DNA of 36,570 nucleotides from the NCBI GenBank assembly GCA_030427595.1, contig JAUIBX010000010.1, forward strand, positions 1-36,570, given 5' to 3'. Origin of the DNA: Bacteriovoracia bacterium. GTDB lineage: Bacteria; Bdellovibrionota; Bacteriovoracia; Bacteriovoracales; Bacteriovoracaceae. Below, piece by piece: positions 2,419 through 36,202 of the stretch. The notes beneath the pieces were generated by a model, which was not told where the DNA came from, did not search any database, and saw nothing but the letters and a program-made list of their open reading frames with translations. Every line of letters starts with the position of its first letter. Positions within the stretch are counted from its first letter, which is position 1. The position numbers were made by a program, and so were the translations under genes.

Positions 2419-4068
2419 TTATTGCGTTAAGGTTTCCCTCGGACTTGGTTTGATGTCTTTGTAATTTAAAATATTGCCACTAAGGAAATCAACTTTCGCC
2501 AAGTCACGCATGCGATGTTCCAACGATAGTTTGTACATCATGTCCTCTGGTCCAACGCCTTCATCTTCAAGTGACTTCATGGCCTTACTCTCAAGGGCCT
2601 TTTTGAAGCTCTTATTTTTAGAAATCATATCGGCGTACATTTTATCGAAGGACTTCTCTAACCTCTCCCCTTCAATGCGCTTGGCCTCTTCTTTCTTTGC
2701 CAGTTCCGTTTGAATTTTATCTGTCACTTCCCTCTTTCTTTTGGTCTCAGCACGCTTTGAAACAAAATGGCGGTACTTCTCAGGAAGTTCGAGGCCACCG
2801 TTAATCATGCTCGTTAAAATAACTTTAGCAAGTGCCTTGAAGGATTTGGTGATCTTGTAATTACAACGAAGAACTTGAAAGAGAGTGATATCAATACAAA
2901 ATTCTCCAGGGATAAGTTCTTCTTTGCCATACATGAAGCGATCCTTCCCTGCCTCTTTTTCAAAGCGAAAATTAAATTCTCGTCTCATATTGACGATATC
3001 GATCTCGGTAAGGTCGAGCTCTTTAAGAGCAGACATTCTATAATCGTCCACCAAATCTTGGTAAAAGGGATCGCGTTCTTCCTTGGCCTCAATAAGATTT
3101 CTCTCTTGGAAAGTGACAAAGATATCCCAGTCTTGAATGCCACGTTTCTTTTTAATATTGAATTCAAAGTTCTTTAGGCTCTCTTGAATACGGCCTAGGT
3201 ATTCACCAATTTGGCGGCGGCGCTTTTTAGAACCGGCAAGGCCAATAACTTGAGCAAGCTCTTCTAAACTGAAGAGGAATTGATCCCCAAATTTCTTTCT
3301 CTTGGAGTAGAGAAAAATCAAAACTCGTCTCTGAGGACCTGATTTAAGGGCGAGGTAGGCATCAGATGAAATCACCGAGACATACTCGTCGTAGAGGTTT
3401 TTAACGATATAACTATCAAACTCCACAAAGAAGACATCTTGGTAATTAGCAAAGTCAACATCCGTGGCGCCAACACGAACACGACCAGACTTCAAAATAA
3501 TCTTGGTGTCTTCATTAACCAAACCAATCTGACCGGTGTGAGCATTGTAAGCAAAGTTCTTTGTTTGCATACTTTGCGATTTAATTTTACGAATGGCACG
3601 TGCCACTTTATTTCTTGAGTTCTCAGAAAGACCGAGACGACGACAAACCTCAGCGAGAGTGTAGTAAACGCGAAAGCCATTCATTTTGTCGCGAGAGTTA
3701 TGATTGCGGTTTCTTTGTTCCCACGCCATGGTTAAAAGAACCAACAGCACATCATTTTCAAAGGCCTGCAAAGGCCCTTCATTAGACTGGGTGGTCACTT
3801 CGAGCATGTAAACACTGCCACTATCATCCACACTGCGAACGATGGCCTTATGTTCTTCAGTCTTATCGTAATCATCCGTGAGGTAATATTTAAAAGGGAG
3901 TGCGAGACCCAAGTTGATTTCAACTTTAAAGCGGTCATCAGCAACACTCTTACCTGAATCACCTTCACCAGAGTCGGTGGGAGCAAACTCTAAATCGTGA
4001 TCGACTTTAATAACTGAATCAACTAAGGATTGGTTGAGATCAGTATCTTCAATGATAGTTCCCTTCAT
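2419..4068 (-). CDS. Plasmid-type replication initiator protein (RPA-like)
   Basis: 549 residues, soluble, no signal peptide. Residues about 50-180 resemble the RPA family of plasmid replication initiators: a beta-rich opening (LPFKYYLTDDY), then a segment with GPLQAFENDVLLVLL and a following helix-turn-helix-like stretch (YYTLAEVCRRLGLS). A second winged-helix-like part follows around residues 250-320 (LEELAQVIGL and a basic KKRRRQ). The C-terminal third is a highly charged, probably coiled-coil region. The N-terminus is acidic. The context is decisive: an array of 14-bp iterons lies directly upstream, and parA with a partner gene lies beyond. It would bind the iterons, open the origin and possibly repress itself. 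The start has AGGGAAGAG just before the ATG. The family name is less certain than the role. Confidence 0.75.
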   Translation of the reverse strand: MKGTIIEDTDLNQSLVDSVIKVDHDLEFAPTDSGEGDSGKSVADDRFKVEINLGLALPFKYYLTDDYDKTEEHKAIVRSVDDSGSVYMLEVTTQSNEGPLQAFENDVLLVLLTMAWEQRNRNHNSRDKMNGFRVYYTLAEVCRRLGLSENSRNKVARAIRKIKSQSMQTKNFAYNAHTGQIGLVNEDTKIILKSGRVRVGATDVDFANYQDVFFVEFDSYIVKNLYDEYVSVISSDAYLALKSGPQRRVLIFLYSKRKKFGDQFLFSLEELAQVIGLAGSKKRRRQIGEYLGRIQESLKNFEFNIKKKRGIQDWDIFVTFQERNLIEAKEERDPFYQDLVDDYRMSALKELDLTEIDIVNMRREFNFRFEKEAGKDRFMYGKEELIPGEFCIDITLFQVLRCNYKITKSFKALAKVILTSMINGGLELPEKYRHFVSKRAETKRKREVTDKIQTELAKKEEAKRIEGERLEKSFDKMYADMISKNKSFKKALESKAMKSLEDEGVGPEDMMYKLSLEHRMRDLAKVDFLSGNILNYKDIKPSPRETLTQ

Positions 4069-4155
4069 AGCTCTTCCCTGCTAGAGGATGTGGAAATTTA
4101 TTCCGGCGTATATATATAAATTATTAACGACAAATGCGCACTTGGCCACACTTTT

Positions 4156-4372
4156 GTCCCTAAAAGTACCGCCGGCCCCGAGTCATCCCTACTAGTATCG
4201 CTCTTCGTTATTCTCCCTAGAAAAACAGGCCTTTGTCATTTTGAAAATCAATTGTGTCCCTACGAGTACAGGGCTAAAGTTTCTCATTTTCCTCAAGTGT
4301 CAAAAAAGTCCCTATTAGTACCGGTATAAAATGAATATCAGAAGCTATCTTTTAAAAAGTCCCTAATCGTAC
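4156..4372 (-). repeat. Origin iterons, left block (minus orientation)
   Basis: Five clear copies of the 14-mer GTCCCTANNAGTAC start at 4156, 4185, 4256, 4308 and 4359, and a degenerate copy lies at 4213-4226. The 4185 copy reads ATCCCTACTAGTAT. Spacings between starts are 29, 28, 43, 52 and 51 bases. They lie between the initiator gene and its likely promoter side, so initiator binding here could control both replication and its own expression. All copies in this block point opposite to those at 4415-4608. Confidence 0.9.
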
Positions 4373-4414
4373 AGGCTGGTTTCCGATTTATGGTGGTTTG
4401 AGGCATTTAGGCCT

Positions 4415-4608
4415 GTACTAATAGGGAGAAGAATTGCTCCCCTGTACTTCTAGGGCCCAAAGGCCGTACTAGAAGGGACTTTCACGAGTTTTGACCTGTA
4501 TCAATAGGGAGAATTGGAAGAGAGGGGTGTACTCCTAGGGACAAAGGGGTGTACTAGTACGGACTTTTGCCTGTACTAAAAGGGATAATAGGCTGTACTT
4601 GTGGGGAC
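4415..4608 (+). repeat. Origin iterons, right block (plus orientation)
   Basis: Eight copies of GTACTNNTAGGGAC (one or two mismatches allowed) start at 4415, 4444, 4466, 4498, 4529, 4551, 4573 and 4595. Five of the seven start-to-start spacings are 22 (four times) or 29 bases; the others are 32 and 31. A 22-base spacing is close to two helical turns, which would place bound proteins on one face of the DNA. The block mirrors the left block about an axis near 4393, where ACAGGC (4371-4376) faces GCCTGT (4411-4416). Confidence 0.92.
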
Positions 4609-4643
4609 CAAGATCTTCGTAAAGACCTGAAATTGTGTTTAAT

Positions 4644-4720
4644 ATCCCTATGAGTACAGTCTATAAATAAGTAAGTAAGTTTAATTATATTTATAATTAC
4701 TAAGGTGTACTCGTAGGGAC
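4644..4720. repeat. Two outlying iterons flanking an AT-rich stretch
   Basis: A minus-oriented copy (ATCCCTATGAGTAC, 4644-4657) and a perfect plus-oriented copy (GTACTCGTAGGGAC, 4707-4720) enclose about 49 bases (4658-4706) that are nearly all A and T and include the short tandem AAGTAAGTAAGT. Such an AT-rich stretch next to iterons is where origin melting usually happens. A second AT-rich stretch lies at 4093-4135 near the initiator start. I could not find a convincing DnaA box. Confidence 0.7.
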
Positions 4721-4768
4721 TCAAACTTCATAACAAGATTGTGTGTGTAGAAGCTGGGTCCATCACGC

Positions 4769-5245
4769 TTAAAACTTCATAGTTTCTTCAATAAATTTCT
4801 TTAGCTCTCCTTCAGTCTGAATGCCTTTAAAGTCAATAACATCCAGGCGATCCTCAATACGCTCACAAAAGCTTTGGACCAACATTCGCAAAACGGTGTT
4901 ATCCGTAATCCTTTTATTAGACCTGTACTCGTAGGGCACTTCTCTCTTAGCGCGAGTAATCTCTGAACAGAATATCTTTAAGAGATCAATATCTTCTGCC
5001 CTCAAACGTGCGCCTTTTTGGACATAACGGTCAAATGTACGCTCTGGATATCTTTTGCGGTCGAATGACTCTGCTATTTCCTCAGATCTCTCTTCTCTTT
5101 TTGGGGGTGTACTAATAGGGACATCTTTTGATTTCGCCTGATAGTCTTCCCTCTTACTTTGCTTTTGAGGAGGTAACCCTTGAGGTTCCCTTTGAGATTT
5201 TTTGATTCTTCTTCCTGAAGTAAAAAAGTCTTCCATTCCAGACAT
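4769..5245 (-). CDS. Small ParB-like partition partner (putative DNA-binding protein)
   Basis: 158 residues. The first 80 are charged and probably disordered (many Lys, Arg, Glu, Pro, Gln). The last 75 look like a compact helical domain with a ribbon-helix-helix-like signature (RITDNTVLRMLVQSFCERI). It has no ParB nuclease motifs, so it would be a small centromere-binding partner rather than a canonical ParB. It is translationally coupled to parA: the parA stop and this ATG overlap as TAATG, with GGGAGG just upstream inside parA. Two origin iterons (4925-4938 and 5109-5122) lie inside the coding sequence, which links the gene physically to the origin. The function is inferred from position, size and the likely fold; I do not recognise a named family. 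Confidence 0.7.
   Translation of the reverse strand: MSGMEDFFTSGRRIKKSQREPQGLPPQKQSKREDYQAKSKDVPISTPPKREERSEEIAESFDRKRYPERTFDRYVQKGARLRAEDIDLLKIFCSEITRAKREVPYEYRSNKRITDNTVLRMLVQSFCERIEDRLDVIDFKGIQTEGELKKFIEETMKF
4925..5122 (+). repeat. Two iterons inside the ParB-like gene
   Basis: GTACTCGTAGGGCA at 4925-4938 (one end base off) and a perfect GTACTAATAGGGAC at 5109-5122. On the coding (minus) strand they are read as the peptides VPYEY and VPIST, in different codon phases, so they are conserved as DNA and not as a repeated peptide. Confidence 0.8.
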
Positions 5246-6126
5246 TAGACCTCCCTTCTGGCCGTCTTATGATTGTGCCCTTGAGACTCATTCTGAGTTT
5301 CATTTGTTTCGATTTCTTTGATCTGTTCTAGGATCTCGTCTACGAGGGCCAAATACTCTCTGTGGCCTCTCTCTGAAGTTTTTGTGATATCGTATATGGT
5401 TTTCTTATCTCGTGGTAAGAAACCGAATTTGGAGGAGATGGGGATCATCGTTTCAAAAAAATGGATTCCCGTTTTTTCACTTAACTCCCCTAGTTCAACC
5501 ACGGCCTTTTTGGCCATTTTAGGTCTCTTATCCATACTCGCCACAAAGAAACCTAGTGGTTCAAGATAAGGGTTCTGCATTTTTTTGACTTTGAGACCCG
5601 CCGTAATGGTGTCGCCAATTGATTCCATGGAGAGGTCACTGGTTTGAACGGGGATGATAAAGTAATCTGCCGCCAAAAGTGAACTTACAGTTGTGATCCC
5701 TAATGAAGGGGCATTGTCGATGAGAACAAAGTGACAGCTGGATAACTCTTGAGATTCTTCAATAAGCTCTTTAAGGAGATTAAACCCTTCAAGTCCTAGT
5801 TGATTGAGAAGGGCCTCTATATTGTAGTTGGCTCCCCTAGCGTCTTTCTTTTCAGAGGGAATAATGAAAAGGTTTTCTCTGTGAGTAGCATAGAAAACTT
5901 CGTCTAAGCTGCCTCCATTTGCCATGACATCACAAATTCCCCTCACCTTTTCTGGGCCTTCCCAAATGGGGCCAATTACTGACCTAGTCGCATTACTTTG
6001 AGTGGTGTCAAAATCGATAATACAGGTTTTAAAACCCATATCGGCTAGACGGCTTGCAATGTGGACTGTTGAGGTCGTTTTACCGATCCCACCTTTTTGT
6101 CCAGTAACTGAAATCACTCTTGGCAT
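5245..6126 (-). CDS. parA: ParA-type partition ATPase
   Basis: 293 residues. The deviant Walker A box is GQKGGIGKTT at residues 9-18, with the signature Lys11 that acts across the ParA dimer. The Walker A' stretch is CIIDFDTTQSN (about 38-48) and the Walker B stretch is HFVLIDNAPSLG (about 138-149). This is the MinD/ParA family; it binds DNA non-specifically with ATP and moves plasmid or chromosome copies. It lacks a long N-terminal helix-turn-helix extension, so self-repression, if any, would need its partner, as in type Ib systems. The start has GGAG four bases before the ATG. It is the first gene of parA-partner, next to the iteron origin and behind a palindrome-rich region. Confidence 0.93.
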   Translation of the reverse strand: MPRVISVTGQKGGIGKTTSTVHIASRLADMGFKTCIIDFDTTQSNATRSVIGPIWEGPEKVRGICDVMANGGSLDEVFYATHRENLFIIPSEKKDARGANYNIEALLNQLGLEGFNLLKELIEESQELSSCHFVLIDNAPSLGITTVSSLLAADYFIIPVQTSDLSMESIGDTITAGLKVKKMQNPYLEPLGFFVASMDKRPKMAKKAVVELGELSEKTGIHFFETMIPISSKFGFLPRDKKTIYDITKTSERGHREYLALVDEILEQIKEIETNETQNESQGHNHKTARREV

Positions 6127-6144
6127 ACTCTCTCCTCTCTTCCC

Positions 6145-6400
6145 TAAGAGTTTTAAACTTTAGAGTTTTAAAGTACCAAGTTTAACACTAGCAAGTTTTA
6201 GACTGGTCACTTTAAAATTTTAAAGTTCATTCTTTAAAAGATTATAACTTAAAACTTTGTTGTTTCACACTTGATAGCTTTTAACTTTAAAAGTTATGAC
6301 TATTCACTTTTATAGTTCATAGTTTTTAAGTTAAAAGCTTGTAAGTTTAAAGGTGAAGACTTGAGAGTTTTAAAGTTTAAAACTCTCAACTTTAAAACTT
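6145..6400. repeat. Palindrome-rich AT stretch upstream of parA (candidate centromere/operator)
   Basis: This stretch is built from variants of ACTTTAAA and TTTAAAGT. Clear palindromes: ACTTTAAAATTTTAAAGT (6209-6226, perfect); TAACTTT-A-AAAGTTA (6282-6296); TTTTAA-G-TTAAAA (6324-6336); and a 29-base one at 6361-6389 with 14-base arms (TTGAGAGTTTTAAA and its exact complement) around a single G. Further half-sites fill the gaps, and another pair (AAAACTT-AA-AAGTTTT) lies at 6601-6616. Position directly before parA fits a partition site that also covers the parA promoter. The role is inferred; the repeats are plain in the sequence. Confidence 0.7.
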
Positions 6401-6827
6401 TTTGAAAAGTCGATGAGTAGGGGAGTTCAGAGATTTACCGTTAATTTTTCATTGTAATGAGGGAAGGGGAGGGGTTTTGCATTCGCGTTCTTCAAAAACC
6501 GCTTGTCTTCTCTGGCGTCCAAAATCGCGGCTATTAACCATTTGAGTTTTGCTAGGGGGTAGGTAGGGGGCAAAATAATCTGAGCAAAGTTTAAAACTAT
6601 AAAACTTAAAAGTTTTAAACTTGAACGGCACATGGCCTTTTTGTCAATTGTCTGTGAAAGGGAAGGCAAACAATTGACTTGGAAGCTAAAGTTCGAAATT
6701 CGGCCAATACTGGCCAATTAAAGGACTTTTTTTTGATTTTTTACTTGCAAAACGCCGTTAGCTTCGGTCAAACTTACCTATACCGTATTTTGCGTATTAG
6801 CTAATCAATCAAATTATGGAGGAATTC
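6401..6827. other. Gene-free stretch between the par region and the histone gene
   Basis: No convincing gene. It holds three short runs of Gs (6461-6474 and 6554-6570), an extra ACTTTAAA-type palindrome (6601-6616), a perfect 9-base inverted repeat GTCAATTGT/ACAATTGAC with an 18-base spacer (6643-6651 and 6670-6678), and a tandem GGCCAATA/GGCCAATT (6702-6718). The histone promoter should lie in the last 100 bases; I cannot pick a clear -35/-10 pair. Confidence 0.5.
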
Positions 6828-7070
6828 ATGGCTAAGAAAAAAGCTACTAAGAAGAAAGCAACTGCAAGAAAAGCTACTAGAAAAGAAGTTCTAGTTGTTG
6901 GTTCTAAAACTAAGACTGCTCTTAAGGGTTCAGGGAAGAATACTTTCAATGTATCTTCTGATACTCTTGATGCAATCAATGAACTTGTTTACCAAGCTGT
7001 TGAGCAAGCTCAAAAAAGATGTGCTGCTAACGGACGTAAAACAATTCGTCCTTACGACATCCTTGCTTAA
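6828..7070 (+). CDS. Bacterial single-fold histone with lysine/alanine-rich N-terminal tail
   Basis: 80 residues. Residues 1-20 form a basic tail of KAT-type repeats (AKKKATKKKATARKATRK). Residues about 21-80 fit one histone fold: a short first helix (VVGSKTKTALKG), a loop (KNTFNVSS), a long central helix (DTLDAINELVYQAVEQAQKRCAANG) and the typical ending RKTIRPYDIL, which matches the L2-alpha3 region of archaeal and Bdellovibrio histones. Bdellovibrio histones of this size are known to be abundant and to bind DNA. The tail is an addition to the bare fold and recalls H1-like or Hc1-like basic tails. I start at 6828 because GGAGG lies six bases before it; the upstream in-frame ATG (6816) overlaps that ribosome site. 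A terminator follows at once, so the gene is monocistronic. Confidence 0.88.
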   Translation: MAKKKATKKKATARKATRKEVLVVGSKTKTALKGSGKNTFNVSSDTLDAINELVYQAVEQAQKRCAANGRKTIRPYDILA

Positions 7071-7096
7071 TTAGCTTTTTATAAAGTTGATTAAAG

Positions 7097-7123
7097 AAGC
7101 CGGACTTCGTTTCGGCTTTTTTT
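7097..7123 (+). terminator. Rho-independent terminator of the histone gene
   Basis: AAGCCG and CGGCTT form a six-pair stem with a ten-base loop, followed by a T run, 27 bases after the histone stop codon. Confidence 0.88.
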
Positions 7124-7273
7124 GTGCCCTTTTTGTCTTTAAGAGAATTGGCGGCAAAATTTAAACTTGTGGTGCTCCTTCTAGACTCTGATACAATAGA
7201 AATAGCTCAAAAGCCTTTCTAGATGGGGTTTTTAAATAGCAAACTCTATCAGTCATCTAAATCTGAAATGAAT

Positions 7274-29672: not shown

Positions 29673-30235
29673 AAGTATTTCTCACACTTCTTCTTTTTGG
29701 TTTTGTGGTGGGCGTATGGTCTCAAAGTGATCCTTATAAGAGAAAGGTCGAGGGCAGTGGAGCTCCTCGTATGGGAAATCGTTTCTTTGTTAAAAATACC
29801 CTCTTGGAAGTTTTTGGGAATAATGAACATCACCGCAAAATTATTGATAAGAACTTCTTTAAAGCAGGCGAATCAGTTGGGGGACCATGTGATATCTGCG
29901 AGCAGGTCTACCATCAACCAGAGGAAGTCTTTGAGCCTGAAAGTGAGTGTGTTGGGGGAAAAGGGGTAAGCAAGGTGGCACACTTTCCCAAAACAAATAT
30001 TTTAAGAACAACTCACCTTATAAAAACATACACAGGGTTGGTCTTAGGCCTCCCGGAAGACCAAGAAATTTTTAAGGGGAATATTTTAGAAAAGAGCTCT
30101 TATGCTTTCTATCCCTATGGTGGAGATATCGAGATAAGAAAATCTCTACAAAAGAAAGCTCCTTTTAATTCTCTAGAGTTAAAGAAAGAGGTTCTTCTTA
30201 CCTATTGCTTAAGTCCTCAATGGCAAAGTCTTTGA
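29669..30235 (+). CDS. Small secreted protein, third gene of the DUF1588/DUF1501 operon
   Basis: 188 residues with a signal peptide (MKVFLTLLLFGFVVGVWS). One C-x-x-C pair lies in GGPCDICEQVYH (about residue 74), without the His of a haem motif, plus two more Cys residues. The start overlaps the stop of the preceding gene as ATGA, so it is coupled to it. I do not recognise the family. Its place suggests a helper of the haem protein or DUF1501 protein. Its 3' end overlaps that of the convergent radical SAM gene by 38 bases. Confidence 0.7.
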   Translation: MKVFLTLLLFGFVVGVWSQSDPYKRKVEGSGAPRMGNRFFVKNTLLEVFGNNEHHRKIIDKNFFKAGESVGGPCDICEQVYHQPEEVFEPESECVGGKGVSKVAHFPKTNILRTTHLIKTYTGLVLGLPEDQEIFKGNILEKSSYAFYPYGGDIEIRKSLQKKAPFNSLELKKEVLLTYCLSPQWQSL

Positions 30236-31865
30236 CCTTGCCCTGGTAGTGAAAGTGTAAGGCGATAATTGGTAGGAAGGGGACGATAAAAATGGATACA
30301 AATTTCTTAAAAATAGTCGGGATTGTAACTTTAGAAAGAAGAAAGTAAGTAGGATTAATAAGAGTAAACTGGCCCTTGTGGTTCCTTAGCAAGTGGTAGG
30401 GATCATACTTATCACTTTTTGCATTGGATAATAATCTGTTAAGAAAGCTTGGGTAACTTCCAATAAGGTGAAAGACGGACTCCTCTCCAAAGGCAAAGCG
30501 ATGAAATTCCAACTCCTCTTCTATGGTGGAAAGATCTTCATGAAGAAGGATAAGGCCTCTTAGATCTAGCGAGGAGATGTAGTTTGGCCAATAATGATTT
30601 TCTTGATTTTGAGGATAGCTTCTTTGAAAACCAGGGGGGAATGTCTCCACAAACCACCCTTTCAGGTCTTCACTCTTTTGGTAGTAGCTTAAAAAGGACG
30701 GGCGCTTTAGCTTATAGTCGACTTTTAGTGTCTCAAGGGCGATTTCTTGCAGCTCTTGAATTGAGTGGCATGGCCGCTCTCTCTCTTGAAGCTTTTGAAT
30801 AAAGGTGATGGCCCCCCTTTTTTTATGATGAGGGATTTGATCTAGACCTTCAATCTGTTGAGAAGTTTTTTCAATGATTTGTTTTAAGAGTTCTTTGGGT
30901 AAAAGATCAGGGGACTGCATGATGCTTAAACGATCTGTGAAGCAGTATGAAAGCATAAAGGGGAGGTTCTCATCTTCAATAAAGTTAATGAGGTCCCTAA
31001 AGTTAAGAAGTGTCGCCAAGGTTAGAGTAATATTGACCTGATTAATCTCAATCGTAGGTACAAGAGATTTGAGATGGTGGAGATTGGTTACAAAGTGGTC
31101 CCATTTGAGGCCATCACGGATAAATTCAGCATCAGCTCCAACGCCGTCAATGCTTAGGGTAAAGCGAACTTCTTTAAAGGCATTGAAAGTCTCTTGCATG
31201 CGTGGCCATTGTTGCAAGGGAAAGGCGAGATTTGTATGGAATTGAAGGGTGACTTCTTTGGCCTTCTCTTCACTGATGAGATTTTCTAAAAGTTGCCAAG
31301 TCTCTTTTTGCAACAGAGCTTCCCCTGAAGCGAAATAGAGTTGCTTAATATCATGGTGGCAGCGTTCATAGAGTTCTGGAATAATCCAAGTCGAATTCAG
31401 TTTCTTCTTCTTAAGAGTGTTATCAACAAGATGGGGGCTTGTTTCTCTAAAGGCCTGTTCAATTTTTGAGGAGCTTTCGGGTGAGCACATTCGACAACTG
31501 AGGTTGCATATATTTGAGTAACGGTAATCTAAAAATATGGGGTCTCCCTTAAAGGTGCCATCTTCTTGGGTGTTTGAAAGGAGGAGCGAACTTTCTTCAT
31601 TAAAGTCATCAAACCTAAGGGTGGGAGGCTCGGTGGCCTGTGGTTTTAGGCACGCCTGGCAATATTGGGGTGGAGGGGTTCCTGCCAACATCGCCTTTCG
31701 GGTATCTTTGAGAAGGGGGGAGTTCCAATAATCTTCAAAGCTATCGAAATCCTCTTCAAAGGGAGTTGCCACGCAACATAGAGCACGCTTGCCACTCATG
31801 GTGACATGGGAGTGGACCCAAGGAGCAAGGCAGAATGTTTTTTTTGAATTATCAGAGCTCGTCAT
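30198..31865 (-). CDS. Twitch-domain radical SAM protein (1)
   Basis: 555 residues. The radical SAM cluster motif is CNLSCRMC (C120, C124, C127), in the family pattern C-x3-C-x2-C. Before it is an N-terminal Cys set: C12 in CLAPW, CC at 30-31 with Gly25 between, and CQAC at 69-72. That is the C-x12-G-x4-C layout of a SPASM/twitch auxiliary cluster, moved to the front as in twitch radical SAM proteins. ASGEALL replaces the usual GGEP-type SAM contact. The C-terminal 150 residues are an addition not seen in the two paralogues and include a hydrophobic segment near residues 505-540. The substrate is unknown. The message has ten As directly before the ATG and no ribosome site. Confidence 0.88.
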   Translation of the reverse strand: MTSSDNSKKTFCLAPWVHSHVTMSGKRALCCVATPFEEDFDSFEDYWNSPLLKDTRKAMLAGTPPPQYCQACLKPQATEPPTLRFDDFNEESSLLLSNTQEDGTFKGDPIFLDYRYSNICNLSCRMCSPESSSKIEQAFRETSPHLVDNTLKKKKLNSTWIIPELYERCHHDIKQLYFASGEALLQKETWQLLENLISEEKAKEVTLQFHTNLAFPLQQWPRMQETFNAFKEVRFTLSIDGVGADAEFIRDGLKWDHFVTNLHHLKSLVPTIEINQVNITLTLATLLNFRDLINFIEDENLPFMLSYCFTDRLSIMQSPDLLPKELLKQIIEKTSQQIEGLDQIPHHKKRGAITFIQKLQERERPCHSIQELQEIALETLKVDYKLKRPSFLSYYQKSEDLKGWFVETFPPGFQRSYPQNQENHYWPNYISSLDLRGLILLHEDLSTIEEELEFHRFAFGEESVFHLIGSYPSFLNRLLSNAKSDKYDPYHLLRNHKGQFTLINPTYFLLSKVTIPTIFKKFVSIFIVPFLPIIALHFHYQGKVKDFAIEDLSNR

Positions 31866-31939
31866 TTTTTTTTTAAGTTTTCTATCCTAGGAATCATTAT
31901 TGACTCTTAGGATAAAAAACTCAAAGGATTTTATGAAAG

Positions 31940-33493
31940 TTACTGATAGAGCACATTAAAGTCCATTTCGTGACCATCTGTGCGAAGCTGATAATCTTTG
32001 ATTTTGATTGAAAAGCTTAGTGCAGGGATAACTTCATCAATGATAATTTTCTCGGCGAGGGAGTCTCTAAGTTCCACCAGGAGTTCTTCCTCAATTTTCT
32101 TCTTAATGAATTTAAATGGTACCCTGATTTTAGGGATGAACTTTTTGGCCTTGTAATAAACTTTGCCATCAATGTCATTTAAGGCAAAGCTTAGAGGTAT
32201 GGCCTGAAGTCCCTTGCCAGGTACCACAGCTAATTGGAACTCAATGGTCGCCTTAGCTGAAATGGTATCATTTTTAAATAATACCTTAGGATAGCCATAG
32301 GTATTACCAAATTTGACCTTGGCGCGCATGGTGGCAATGATTTTGTGATGGGCCTCACCCTCAGCGCCTTCTTTCTCAATTTTATAGTTATAGGTCGGTC
32401 TTTCGAGGGGATAGGCCCAAAACTTAACATTTAGTTTCTTAGTCTTTCCTAGGATATCAAACTCCACCTCCTCAATTTTTCCTGAGTGGTCGGGGTCATC
32501 ATAGCCAAAGCAAAAGAGGGGCTCATCGGGATAACCATCATTATCTTCATCGGTTTCATAGATGGCCATATTATCAACAATACTTTCGACAAAACTATAA
32601 GAGACTTTAACAGTACCGGGGTTGCGATTCTCAAGAAGAATACTTTGATTTTCTTTATTGAGGCTTTTTTGATTGCCCGCAATTCCCATAGAGCGTGCGA
32701 GTTCTCTGGCGCAGACATGAACTTTGCTTTGAGGTTCAAGAAATTGAGTGTCGAGTTTAAACTCAACTCCCTTGTCGTCTAAGGCAAAGTGATTGAATCG
32801 TGCTTGCAGCTTGGTCGCATAGTCGCTTACGTGAATCTTGAGTTTCTCCAAGCTGGCCAAGTCTTCTTCAACCATTTCTTGAAACTTCGCTGAAAACTTT
32901 GGGCCGGCAAAATAGTCTTGAATTTCTTCGTTAAGAACATCTCTGACTCTTGAATCTATTCTCTCTAGAATCCAGGTAACAATATCATCATCTGCAGATT
33001 GCACAGAAATGTGATTAAAGGCAAAACCTCTATTTTCCACAAGTTTAAGTTTGAATTTACCGTCTTCAAATTGTACCTGAAAAACACTTTCCCCTTGTGG
33101 GATATCACGAGCTGATATATGGAAGACTTCATGCTTTCTAATGATGACCCCGAAAATATCCACTTTCCAATCCGCGCGAACATTGAATTGTCCCGTTACA
33201 GCTTTGAAGTTCCAACGAATTCGCACTTGATTTTTGGGTAAAGGCTCCACACTAAAGAGATTGGGCTTAATGGCAGCTAAGTTGATATGACCATCAAGAA
33301 GTTTAAGATGAAGGTCCCCTTCATCATCGATTTGAATATTGGAGAAGGGGATGTGATCAGGCATTTCATCTCTTAAATCCACTGTAAGCTGGTCAAAGAA
33401 CTGAGCCTCTGGTTTGAAATTAAAATCAACACCATCGACTTCATAAGCAGCGATTGAGAGGGAGAGGAGAAAGAGAATTGTGATGAGCTTCAC
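31940..33493 (-). CDS. Secreted protein, possibly TULIP-like lipid-binding
   Basis: 517 residues from the GTG at 33493, which begins a tidy signal peptide (VKLITILFLLSLSIAA) and has AAGGA seven bases upstream. An ATG at 33535 would add a 14-residue basic leader and has no ribosome site. The mature part is beta-rich, with long stretches of alternating hydrophobic residues and amphipathic helices, about in the manner of BPI/TULIP lipid-binding proteins. This assignment rests on pattern only. An Asp-rich loop (YETDEDNDGYPDEP and DDPDHSGKIEE) looks like a calcium-binding EF-hand-like site. Two Cys residues are seen. It lies alone between two radical SAM genes. Confidence 0.65.
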   Translation of the reverse strand: MKLITILFLLSLSIAAYEVDGVDFNFKPEAQFFDQLTVDLRDEMPDHIPFSNIQIDDEGDLHLKLLDGHINLAAIKPNLFSVEPLPKNQVRIRWNFKAVTGQFNVRADWKVDIFGVIIRKHEVFHISARDIPQGESVFQVQFEDGKFKLKLVENRGFAFNHISVQSADDDIVTWILERIDSRVRDVLNEEIQDYFAGPKFSAKFQEMVEEDLASLEKLKIHVSDYATKLQARFNHFALDDKGVEFKLDTQFLEPQSKVHVCARELARSMGIAGNQKSLNKENQSILLENRNPGTVKVSYSFVESIVDNMAIYETDEDNDGYPDEPLFCFGYDDPDHSGKIEEVEFDILGKTKKLNVKFWAYPLERPTYNYKIEKEGAEGEAHHKIIATMRAKVKFGNTYGYPKVLFKNDTISAKATIEFQLAVVPGKGLQAIPLSFALNDIDGKVYYKAKKFIPKIRVPFKFIKKKIEEELLVELRDSLAEKIIIDEVIPALSFSIKIKDYQLRTDGHEMDFNVLYQ

Positions 33494-33750
33494 TATTTTT
33501 TCCTTGTTATGTTTGATTTTAAAATAGGTCTTCATGTCATAGGCTGCAACTTACCATGTATTTGGGTAAGGCTCATTGGCCAGAAATAGCGTTTATGAAA
33601 TGATAATGAAAAAAAATACGACACTTCAGGTTTAAAATAAACTCTTGTCTTGACCAGTTTCAGGTGGTCTCCGCATGGTTTTTTCGTGTTTTTAGTAATT
33701 TAAGCTAATTTGGTGTCTTTTTTCTTTTGAGTTGTGGCAAAATGCTTGTG

Positions 33751-34986
33751 ATGACTACAGATTCTAAAATTCTTTGTGCAGCCCCTTGGACTCACCTTAG
33801 TGTAGAGCCAAATGGTGCGGTTTTTACTTGTTGCATGGCCACTTCTTCAAAGGCCTTGGGTCTAATAAAAAGCAATAAAGAAGGCCAATTGCAAGAGTTA
33901 TGGAATGGAGAATTGATGAAGTCTATCAGGCTGGAGATGATGAAGGGAAGAGCTCCTCATCAATGTCGGCCTTGTTATGAATTAGAGGAAGATGGTAGCT
34001 TCAGCCAGAGAGTCTTTATTAATGAACGATTTAAAAGGGTGCTACCTCAATTAATCGAGGAAACTCACCAAGATGGTAAGCTTAATGCTCAACCTCAATA
34101 CCTAGGGCTTCGATTTAGTAATATATGTAATTTTGCGTGTCGAATTTGTGACGGTCAACTGAGTACAGGCTGGTATAAAGATGAAGAAAGGCTAGGGCGA
34201 GAACATCCCGATGGTCCTCTCAAGGTTTTTGAAAATATTGAGACTCTCGAGAATTTCTTTGCGCCCCTTTGGCCTCACCTCTCTTGGGTTTACTTTGCGG
34301 GTGGGGAGCCTTTCTTAAGTGTAGAACACCATTCCTTTCTCCATCTCCTAAGGCGAAATCAAAGACTTGATGTTGATCTCCTTTATAATACGAATCTATC
34401 GACGTTGAAGTCTTTTGGTGAAGATCTTTTGGAGCTGTGGGATGGTTTTCATTCCGTGACCCTTAATGTGAGTTTGGATGCCATCTATGCAAGAGCGGAA
34501 TATCTTCGCTATGGCCAAAACTGGCAAGAGACAGAAGACCTACTAAAGCTCTTAAGAAATCACCAAGATCGAATAAATGTGACCTTTACCCCCGTTATTT
34601 CGATTCATAATATCTTTCACCTTAAAGATTACCTCTTCTATTTCTTTGATAATTTTAGTGTGAGACCTGATCAGTTTGTCCTTGATCCTTTAAAGAGTCC
34701 CTCCCATAGCTCCATTAATGTCTTACCTCAAGGGGCGAAAGAGAAGGCGAAATCTGTTTTAAAGCTTCTTCAAAAAGAACTCCTAAGTCACTTTGATCTT
34801 AATGACTGCGGAATCCTAGTTAAGCAGATAGCAGGGCTTATGACCTTTATGGAAGCTGAAGATTGCTCCTCTCTATGGCCTAACTTCTGTGATGATATTC
34901 AAAAAGTGGATGAAATACGCGAACAAGATTTCTTAGATGTCTTTCCAGAGTTTAAAGAATATTTCATTGAGCGTGACCAAGCTTAA
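33751..34986 (+). CDS. Twitch-domain radical SAM protein (2)
   Basis: 411 residues from the ATG at 33751, chosen because it lines up with the paralogues (MTTDSKILCAAPW against MKTLCPLPW); longer starts at 33727 (TTG) and 33742 (ATG) are possible. The core cluster is CNFACRIC (C126, C130, C133), then a GGEP motif (YFAGGEPFLS). The N-terminal auxiliary set is C9 in CAAPW, Gly22, CC at 27-28, and C-x-x-C in QCRPCYELEE. It is the best-preserved of the three paralogues. Substrate unknown. The 3' end overlaps that of the third paralogue by 23 bases. Confidence 0.9.
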   Translation: MTTDSKILCAAPWTHLSVEPNGAVFTCCMATSSKALGLIKSNKEGQLQELWNGELMKSIRLEMMKGRAPHQCRPCYELEEDGSFSQRVFINERFKRVLPQLIEETHQDGKLNAQPQYLGLRFSNICNFACRICDGQLSTGWYKDEERLGREHPDGPLKVFENIETLENFFAPLWPHLSWVYFAGGEPFLSVEHHSFLHLLRRNQRLDVDLLYNTNLSTLKSFGEDLLELWDGFHSVTLNVSLDAIYARAEYLRYGQNWQETEDLLKLLRNHQDRINVTFTPVISIHNIFHLKDYLFYFFDNFSVRPDQFVLDPLKSPSHSSINVLPQGAKEKAKSVLKLLQKELLSHFDLNDCGILVKQIAGLMTFMEAEDCSSLWPNFCDDIQKVDEIREQDFLDVFPEFKEYFIERDQA

Positions 34987-36202
34987 ATTCCGGATAGGCC
35001 TGTTCAAGAGATTGTCCTCTTAGTTTATCAAGCTTCTTTGCATAGATGACAAAATCTAAGAATTCTTGATGGCGGTTATAAGTTAGGGTGTCTGTTAAAA
35101 GGGCTTTATAGTTTTTGATCTCTCTTTCATGAAATTCACGATGACTACTTTGAAGTAGGTCTTGGTTTTTTTCGATAAAGTGAACAAAGTCCTTTTGAGC
35201 TTTTTTGAGTAATTGAGGTTGAATTAAAGCTGGATCCAATGGCAGGGATGAGTCCACACGGGTAAAACTTGGAAGTATCGGAACCTTGCCTTGGAATTGG
35301 GCCAGGTATTTAAAGAGGTCAATAAGCTGAGTGATATTGAAGGCTTGAACAACCGTGTGCAAATCTAACGTGAAGTTAGGGTACTCCTCTTTTAGTTTCA
35401 ATAGTTCTCTATAGGTGCGATCAATAGTGGCCCACTTAGAGGGATAGCGAATATAATCTGATGTCTTACCGTAACCATCAATACTGCAAAAGAGGTGAGT
35501 CTCTTTAAAGCTTTTTAAATAACTTTCAAGCTCTCTCGGTATTAAGGTTGTGTTAGTGAAAAAACGTAGGGAAATATTTGGGGCATGTCCACTTTCAATG
35601 ACTCTATTGAGGAGGGTGTGAACAGCTGGAGAAAGAAAGGGCTCTCCCCCTGTACATGTGATCATTCTTAAGTGAGAAAAGCTTTCTTCTAATAGGGGGG
35701 AGTGTTGATAAATGTCTTGGCTTTTTTGAATGTCGATACCACGGACTTCTTTTTCTCCAGGGTCCCAGCCTAAACTCTTCCAGTCCTCCATGATTTTATG
35801 AGAGTAGCGCGGCCGGCACATACGACATTTGAGGTTGCAGTGGTTGTCGGTGGTGACATCGAGATAGGCGAGTCTTGCCTCTTTAAGAGTGCCATCTTCC
35901 TTTGTTAATTTAAGCATTTCTTGAAATTCTTCACAAAAGCGTGTGTTGTATTCAAGGCGAGGGGAGTGACCGGTCTTCTCTTCAAGCCTAAAGCAACCGC
36001 GACAGGCCTGAGGGTATTCACCTTTAAGCATTTTTTGGCGGGCCTTTAAGAAGAGGTCGCTATTGAAGGCATCTATAGCACTTGAAAAGTCTTCCAAGAA
36101 AACCCCAGAAGTTTCCTCGCGGGTTTCATGACAGCATAAACGCAGTTCACGTTGGCTTTCTGTACTCAAGCTTAACCATGGGAGGGGGCAAAGGGTTTTC
36201 AT
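34964..36202 (-). CDS. Twitch-domain radical SAM protein (3)
   Basis: 412 residues. The core cluster is CNLKCRMC (C122, C126, C129), followed by TCTGGEPFLS. The N-terminal auxiliary set is C5 in CPLPW, CC at 23-24 (same 18-residue distance as in the other two, but Gly replaced by Arg18) and CRGC at 67-70. It begins 32 bases after the amidinotransferase-fold gene on the same strand, so the two may be one operon. TATAAT lies at 36208-36213, six bases before the start codon, which would make a leaderless message if used. Confidence 0.9.
   Translation of the reverse strand: MKTLCPLPWLSLSTESQRELRLCCHETREETSGVFLEDFSSAIDAFNSDLFLKARQKMLKGEYPQACRGCFRLEEKTGHSPRLEYNTRFCEEFQEMLKLTKEDGTLKEARLAYLDVTTDNHCNLKCRMCRPRYSHKIMEDWKSLGWDPGEKEVRGIDIQKSQDIYQHSPLLEESFSHLRMITCTGGEPFLSPAVHTLLNRVIESGHAPNISLRFFTNTTLIPRELESYLKSFKETHLFCSIDGYGKTSDYIRYPSKWATIDRTYRELLKLKEEYPNFTLDLHTVVQAFNITQLIDLFKYLAQFQGKVPILPSFTRVDSSLPLDPALIQPQLLKKAQKDFVHFIEKNQDLLQSSHREFHEREIKNYKALLTDTLTYNRHQEFLDFVIYAKKLDKLRGQSLEQAYPEFKLGHAQ

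Follow-up and report, generated by a model that had tools for sequence, protein, structure and literature searches.

Here we describe a bona fide bacterial histone whose N-terminal tail is basic, encoded in a 36,570-base window of DNA that is an entire contig (C29) of a Bacteriovoracia assembly of 3.82 Mb in 360 contigs. The protein is a well-supported member of the already described tailed face-to-face (FtF) histones, not a new system. In the reading that we consider quite probable, it acts as an abundant general chromatin protein, with ring-shaped tetramers that would wrap DNA and tails that would tune compaction. The features on which this reading draws, together with the neighboring genes, are collected in Table 1.

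Table 1. Positions of the tailed histone gene, its parts and signals, and the adjacent replication and partition features in the window.
Feature	Position	Strand	Evidence
Tailed histone gene, 80 aa, MAKKKATKKKATARKATRKEVLVVGSKTKTALKGSGKNTFNVSSDTLDAINELVYQAVEQAQKRCAANGRKTIRPYDILA	6828..7070	+	ORF, phmmer, AF2, Foldseek
Basic tail, predicted to be disordered, residues 1-19, MAKKKATKKKATARKATRK, net +10	6828..6884	+	AF2, charge, kept in 7/7 congeners
Histone fold, residues 20-80; helix 1 25-33, helix 2 44-67, one-turn helix 3 75-79	6885..7067	+	AF2, phmmer to HLp, Foldseek
R64, N68, R70, T72, D77: FtF tetramer residues and RD clamp / RxTxxxxD loop	7017..7058	+	HLp alignment, conservation
Candidate promoter, a bipartite element kept upstream of the gene, ATTTTTTACTTGCAAAA ... 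TCAAACTT	6736..6775	+	7-way upstream alignment
Ribosome binding site GGAGGA	6818..6823	+	Sequence; GGAGG kept in 7/7 congeners
Intrinsic terminator, hairpin and U run	7093..7122	+	Folding and 7-way alignment
549-aa putative replication initiator	2419..4068	-	Adjoins iteron-like repeats; same 5/7 genus genomes
Iteron-like repeats (TGTACTNNTAGGG and longer forms), both orientations, 13-20 bp, many	4132..5123	.	Repeat search
158-aa ORF overlapping parA, possible partition partner	4769..5245	-	Only with rep/par block, 5/7 genus genomes
ParA-family partition ATPase, neighbor outside the histone unit	5245..6126	-	Pfam AAA_31 3.5e-29; PHROG ParA-like 3.7e-47
Candidate partition site: densely spaced AT-rich TTTAAA repeats, direct and inverted, in the gap separating parA from the histone	6142..6624	.	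Repeat search

The original prediction had placed a histone in the reading frame that starts at 6828 and ends with the stop codon at 7068-7070, and phmmer, AF2, and Foldseek agree on a histone fold there, beyond chance. In phmmer searches of the PDB, the best match was HLp of Leptospira perolatii (E 2.5e-8), with further matches to HBb of Bdellovibrio (E 2.3e-5) and HTkC of Thermococcus (E 0.017). The AF2 model, a monomer computed with 46 relatives in the alignment, has three helices, the fold scoring pLDDT 86-95, and its top nine Foldseek matches in the PDB are all bacterial or archaeal histones (HBb, HLp, and HTkC). It superimposes on HLp with a TM-score of 0.91 (rmsd 1.3 Å), on the archaeal FtF histone HTkC with 0.88 (rmsd 1.7), and on the dimer HBb with 0.82-0.87 (rmsd 1.8-1.9 Å). 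AF2 and the Foldseek matches to HLp and HTkC concur on a single histone fold with a short helix 3, as in FtF histones. The monomer prediction bears out the expected fold. Its description as 'helix-strand-helix' needs correcting, the histone fold being helix-loop-helix-loop-helix. Homology to proteins of HU/IHF type only would have counted against a histone; the PDB matches are histones, and there is no Pfam match to the HU/IHF domain PF00216. The N-terminus of the tailed histone has no ZZ-type zinc domain. The Pfam family CBFD_NFYB_HMF scores 15.7 bits, under its cut-off of 21.4 bits, and Pfam, NCBIfam, and PHROGs yield no family above threshold; with its Pfam family below threshold, the tailed histone could therefore be missed by automatic annotation. 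Comparison across the genus puts core dN far under dS (e.g. 0.033 versus 0.56), and the core is under purifying selection.

FtF histones are defined by a predicted tetramer with conserved residues (Schwab et al. 2024, PMC11390915). These residues, R48, N52, R54, T56, and D61 in HMM numbering, are present here as R64, N68, R70, T72, and D77; the last four are invariant among 46 relatives, and at the R64 position R or K predominates. The tetramer of HLp, which wraps about 60 bp of DNA (Hu et al., PMC12701072), is formed via R49, N53, and R55, and its loop 2 is clamped by R55-D62 (PMC12701072). In our alignment R49, N53, and R55 correspond to R64, N68, and R70, and the clamp is R70-D77. Most likely, then, the tailed histone is an FtF histone that would wrap DNA as a tetramer.

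The histone gene is monocistronic, as the genes flanking it on both sides run on the opposite strand. The start position at 6828 is conserved in 7/7 congeners by alignment, and an alternative in-frame ATG at 6816 overlaps the gene's ribosome site. Downstream, the region 7071-7135 folds at -18.1 kcal/mol (z -4.1), and a similar hairpin and T run lies 3' of the gene in all seven orthologues; the histone's terminator escaped the consensus scan but is seen by folding and alignment. Single-gene organization, ribosome site, and terminator had all been predicted, and the opposite-strand neighbors, the conservation in 7/7 genomes, and the folding bear them out. The bipartite upstream element, given also as TTTTTACTTGCAAAA then TCAAACTT, has small departures in some genus members and may act as the promoter; a sigma-70 consensus scan found no site, and the element is unlike that consensus.

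Codon usage, scored against the ribosomal protein genes of the same genome, sets the tailed histone apart. Its codon adaptation of 0.83 exceeds that of each ribosomal-operon gene sampled (0.59-0.77) and of all 97 background ORFs. Synonymous shuffles that follow background usage give 0.56 +/- 0.04, which places the histone 6.4 sd higher. Such a value points to a very abundant protein, codon usage in an 80-codon gene being only an indicator. Values are ordinary for parA (0.52) and rep (0.57), and the genome's ZZ-type histone does not stand out (0.47). Three HU/IHF genes are present elsewhere in the genome, so the histone is not its sole architectural protein.

The tail is composed of Lys, Ala, Thr, and Arg, and carries a net charge of +10, versus +3 for the other 61 residues. 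AF2 gives it low confidence (pLDDT about 55 over residues 1-20), and it is predicted to be disordered. The basic KAT-type tail of about 20 residues named in the original prediction is real, and it recurs with the histone in 7/7 genus genomes, where tails of 19-29 residues all start MAKKKATKKKA, with synonymous codon differences between members. A search of relatives found tails, counted as stretches of no fewer than ten residues of which five or more are K/R, in 11 of the 16 family orthologues whose C-terminus reads IRPYDILA or nearly so; because the other five have none, the tail can be judged dispensable over evolutionary time. A genome under the name Halobacteriovorax marinus has one of the tailed orthologues (L084). 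Within a single orthologous group with a well-conserved core, tail length varies between about 4 and 42 residues. Tails of KAT/KKA type also occur in a further family of this phylum (L025), in Acidobacteriota (L086-L088), and in Planctomycetes-type records (L089, L091, L092). A basic tail had been thought unusual in bacteria, a view that does not hold: tails are common, and mostly positively charged, on bacterial FtF histones, with no sequence conserved across bacteria (Schwab et al. 2024, PMC11390915), and 31 of the 62 histones gathered here are tailed, a frequency that is not a census, as the wider set came partly from a search whose seeds included MAKKKATK. A fewest-changes count on a core-only tree (57 columns, partly resolved) gives at least 10 changes of tail state. 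Basic histone tails seem to come and go easily; the present one is probably functional, and it is not unprecedented.

The ZZ-type histone was considered as a possible reader of the tail and rejected. Full-length ZZ histones are found, by hand count, in 8/11 family genomes with a tailed orthologue, in 2/5 with an untailed one, and in 9/21 of the remainder, with no clear link to the tail once relatedness is considered; Schwab et al. (PMC11390915) doubted such a role as well. The ZZ-histone locus of the present genome is separate (C7), and its gene (L003, C7:4409-4846) is broken by an in-frame TAA that falls after the zinc domain and ahead of the histone fold. The copies in the six congeners have no stop, and the TAA reflects either a pseudogene or an assembly error. 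In seven family genomes (G010, G015, G017, G024, G027, G030, and G034), two adjacent ZZ-histone matches about 200 bp apart share one ORF and are apparent histone doublets. A viral scan also returned three distant histones on IMG/VR contigs (L147, L148, and L149), with L148 a tandem doublet in one ORF.

How might such a protein organize DNA? The fold, the conservation of the tetramer residues, the low-confidence charged tail, the selection on the core, and the high-expression codons are established; from these, and from a structure prediction that is of a monomer, we infer tetramerization, wrapping, and tail action. Two histone-fold dimers would join in a ring-shaped tetramer held by R64, N68, and R70, with about 60 bp of DNA wrapped along the basic rim of the ring. 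The four lysine-rich tails, disordered and each of about +10, would project from the N-terminal (helix 1) side, where they may raise DNA affinity and neutralize or bridge adjacent DNA, tail length tuning the compaction. Lysine acetylation might conceivably regulate the tail, as suggested by HupS of Streptomyces, which has a lysine-rich tail and DNA binding controlled by acetylation (PMC11229371). The genome has one Sir2-family gene, of a kind common in bacteria and by itself no evidence of tail modification.

An extension of this general chromatin-protein reading, compatible with it and in our estimate rather doubtful, is that the tailed histone combines with an untailed paralogue in mixed tetramers, the ratio of the two setting compaction, for instance in attack versus growth phases. 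Indeed, 6/7 genus genomes encode an untailed FtF-type paralogue that shares the R/N/R residues, and the copy in the present genome (C360) is also codon-adapted (0.73); many relatives, however, carry only one of the two histones. It is tempting to speculate more broadly, if only tentatively, that the FtF tail of this family is a fast-evolving tuning device, repeatedly gained and lost, and that co-expressed tailed and untailed paralogues in mixed tetramers, perhaps with tail acetylation, set the compaction of the predator nucleoid.

A different proposal is that the protein is an HBb-like dimer histone, bending DNA as a dimer, to which a basic tail has been added. The homology to HBb is clear (E 2.3e-5), and the fold and short helix 3 are similar; we nonetheless regard this proposal as unlikely. 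HBb-type dimers are without the first two tetramer residues, the R48/N52 equivalents (PMC11390915), whereas R64 and N68 are both present here, with N68 invariant in 46/46 relatives, and HLp is nearer in both sequence and structure. The literature, moreover, assigns the class Bdellovibrionia to dimers and reports FtF histones in the class Bacteriovoracia (PMC11390915). Because the FtF residues are kept, unlike in HBb-type dimers, we file the tailed histone with the FtF group, and the comparison with Bdellovibrio histones from which the original prediction set out gives way to one with tetrameric FtF histones.

The histone does lie beside replication and partition genes, as had been predicted, with a ParA, iteron-like repeats, and AT-rich repeats all present. 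The 549-aa ORF has no Pfam or NCBIfam match and is putatively assigned as Rep from its position; together with the iteron-like repeats it is a candidate for an undescribed replication initiator and origin. The 158-aa ORF likewise has no family match in Pfam or NCBIfam. Rep, this ORF, parA, and the two sets of repeats plausibly form a replication/partition block. A second ParA, of chromosomal type and with parS-like sites, is encoded on C48 of the genome, and a plasmid search gave only distant matches (<60% identity), those listed being haloarchaeal. The original prediction went on to suggest that the histone compacts or marks this replicon. Such a replicon-specific or centromere-associated role would suit a gene that lies 0.7 kb from parA, next to AT-rich and iteron-like repeats, in an order (rep - ORF - parA - histone) kept in 5/7 genus genomes, but it is very improbable and was rejected on synteny: two congeners keep the tailed histone without the block, one with the flanking gene and the histone adjacent (G003) and one in which the histone sits some 23-28 kb from the flanking genes, all on a 232-kb contig that also bears tRNA genes (G006); and no linkage of histone to this rep or par is found outside the genus. 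Codon usage also speaks against it, that of the histone being of the very highly expressed type, whereas that of parA and rep is average. The histone is independent of the rep/par block, whether the block was inserted or lost. Farther along the window, 30198-36202 encodes three close-set paralogous proteins (one similarity cluster) with cysteine motifs resembling those of radical SAM/SPASM enzymes.

Tailed bacterial FtF histones are known from sequence lists, and the structurally studied HLp is nearly tailless (PMC11390915, PMC12701072). The lineage described here has the same core with and without a basic tail, plus an untailed paralogue, and thereby provides a natural comparison for the role of the tail, one that could address what a histone gains from a tail where the machinery serving eukaryotic tails is missing. 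A possible over-reading is corrected as well: basic histone tails are not limited to eukaryotes and Asgard archaea.

Disordered Lys/Ala-rich segments that likely bind DNA are also found in the HupB tail, AlgP, and Hc1-like H1 proteins; HupB has an HU fold with a C-terminal tail, and AlgP and the Hc1-like proteins are without a histone fold. HupS has a segment of the same kind, a resemblance confined to the tail, since its HU fold and C-terminal tail are unlike the N-terminally tailed histone. HBb (Bd0055 of Bdellovibrio bacteriovorus) is a phylum-level relative with the bacterial singlet histone fold, but it is a dimer without the FtF tetramer residues, and a long basic tail is missing from the sequence in the PDB. 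HLp (PDB 9QT0-9QT2, PMC12701072) is the closest PDB relative by sequence, with about 40% core identity and the best TM-score, and shares the single fold, the one-turn helix 3, the tetramer residues, and the R-D clamp. As studied, however, HLp is a short form with only six to seven disordered N-terminal residues, against a basic tail of 19 residues here, and the loop after helix 1 is 3 residues longer in the tailed histone. The closest likeness is to the tailed bacterial FtF histones already described (PMC11390915), which share the group, the host class, and a positively charged N-terminal tail. Nothing categorical separates the present histone from them; what marks it is a KAT-type tail kept throughout the genus, along with the untailed paralogue that its own genome encodes.
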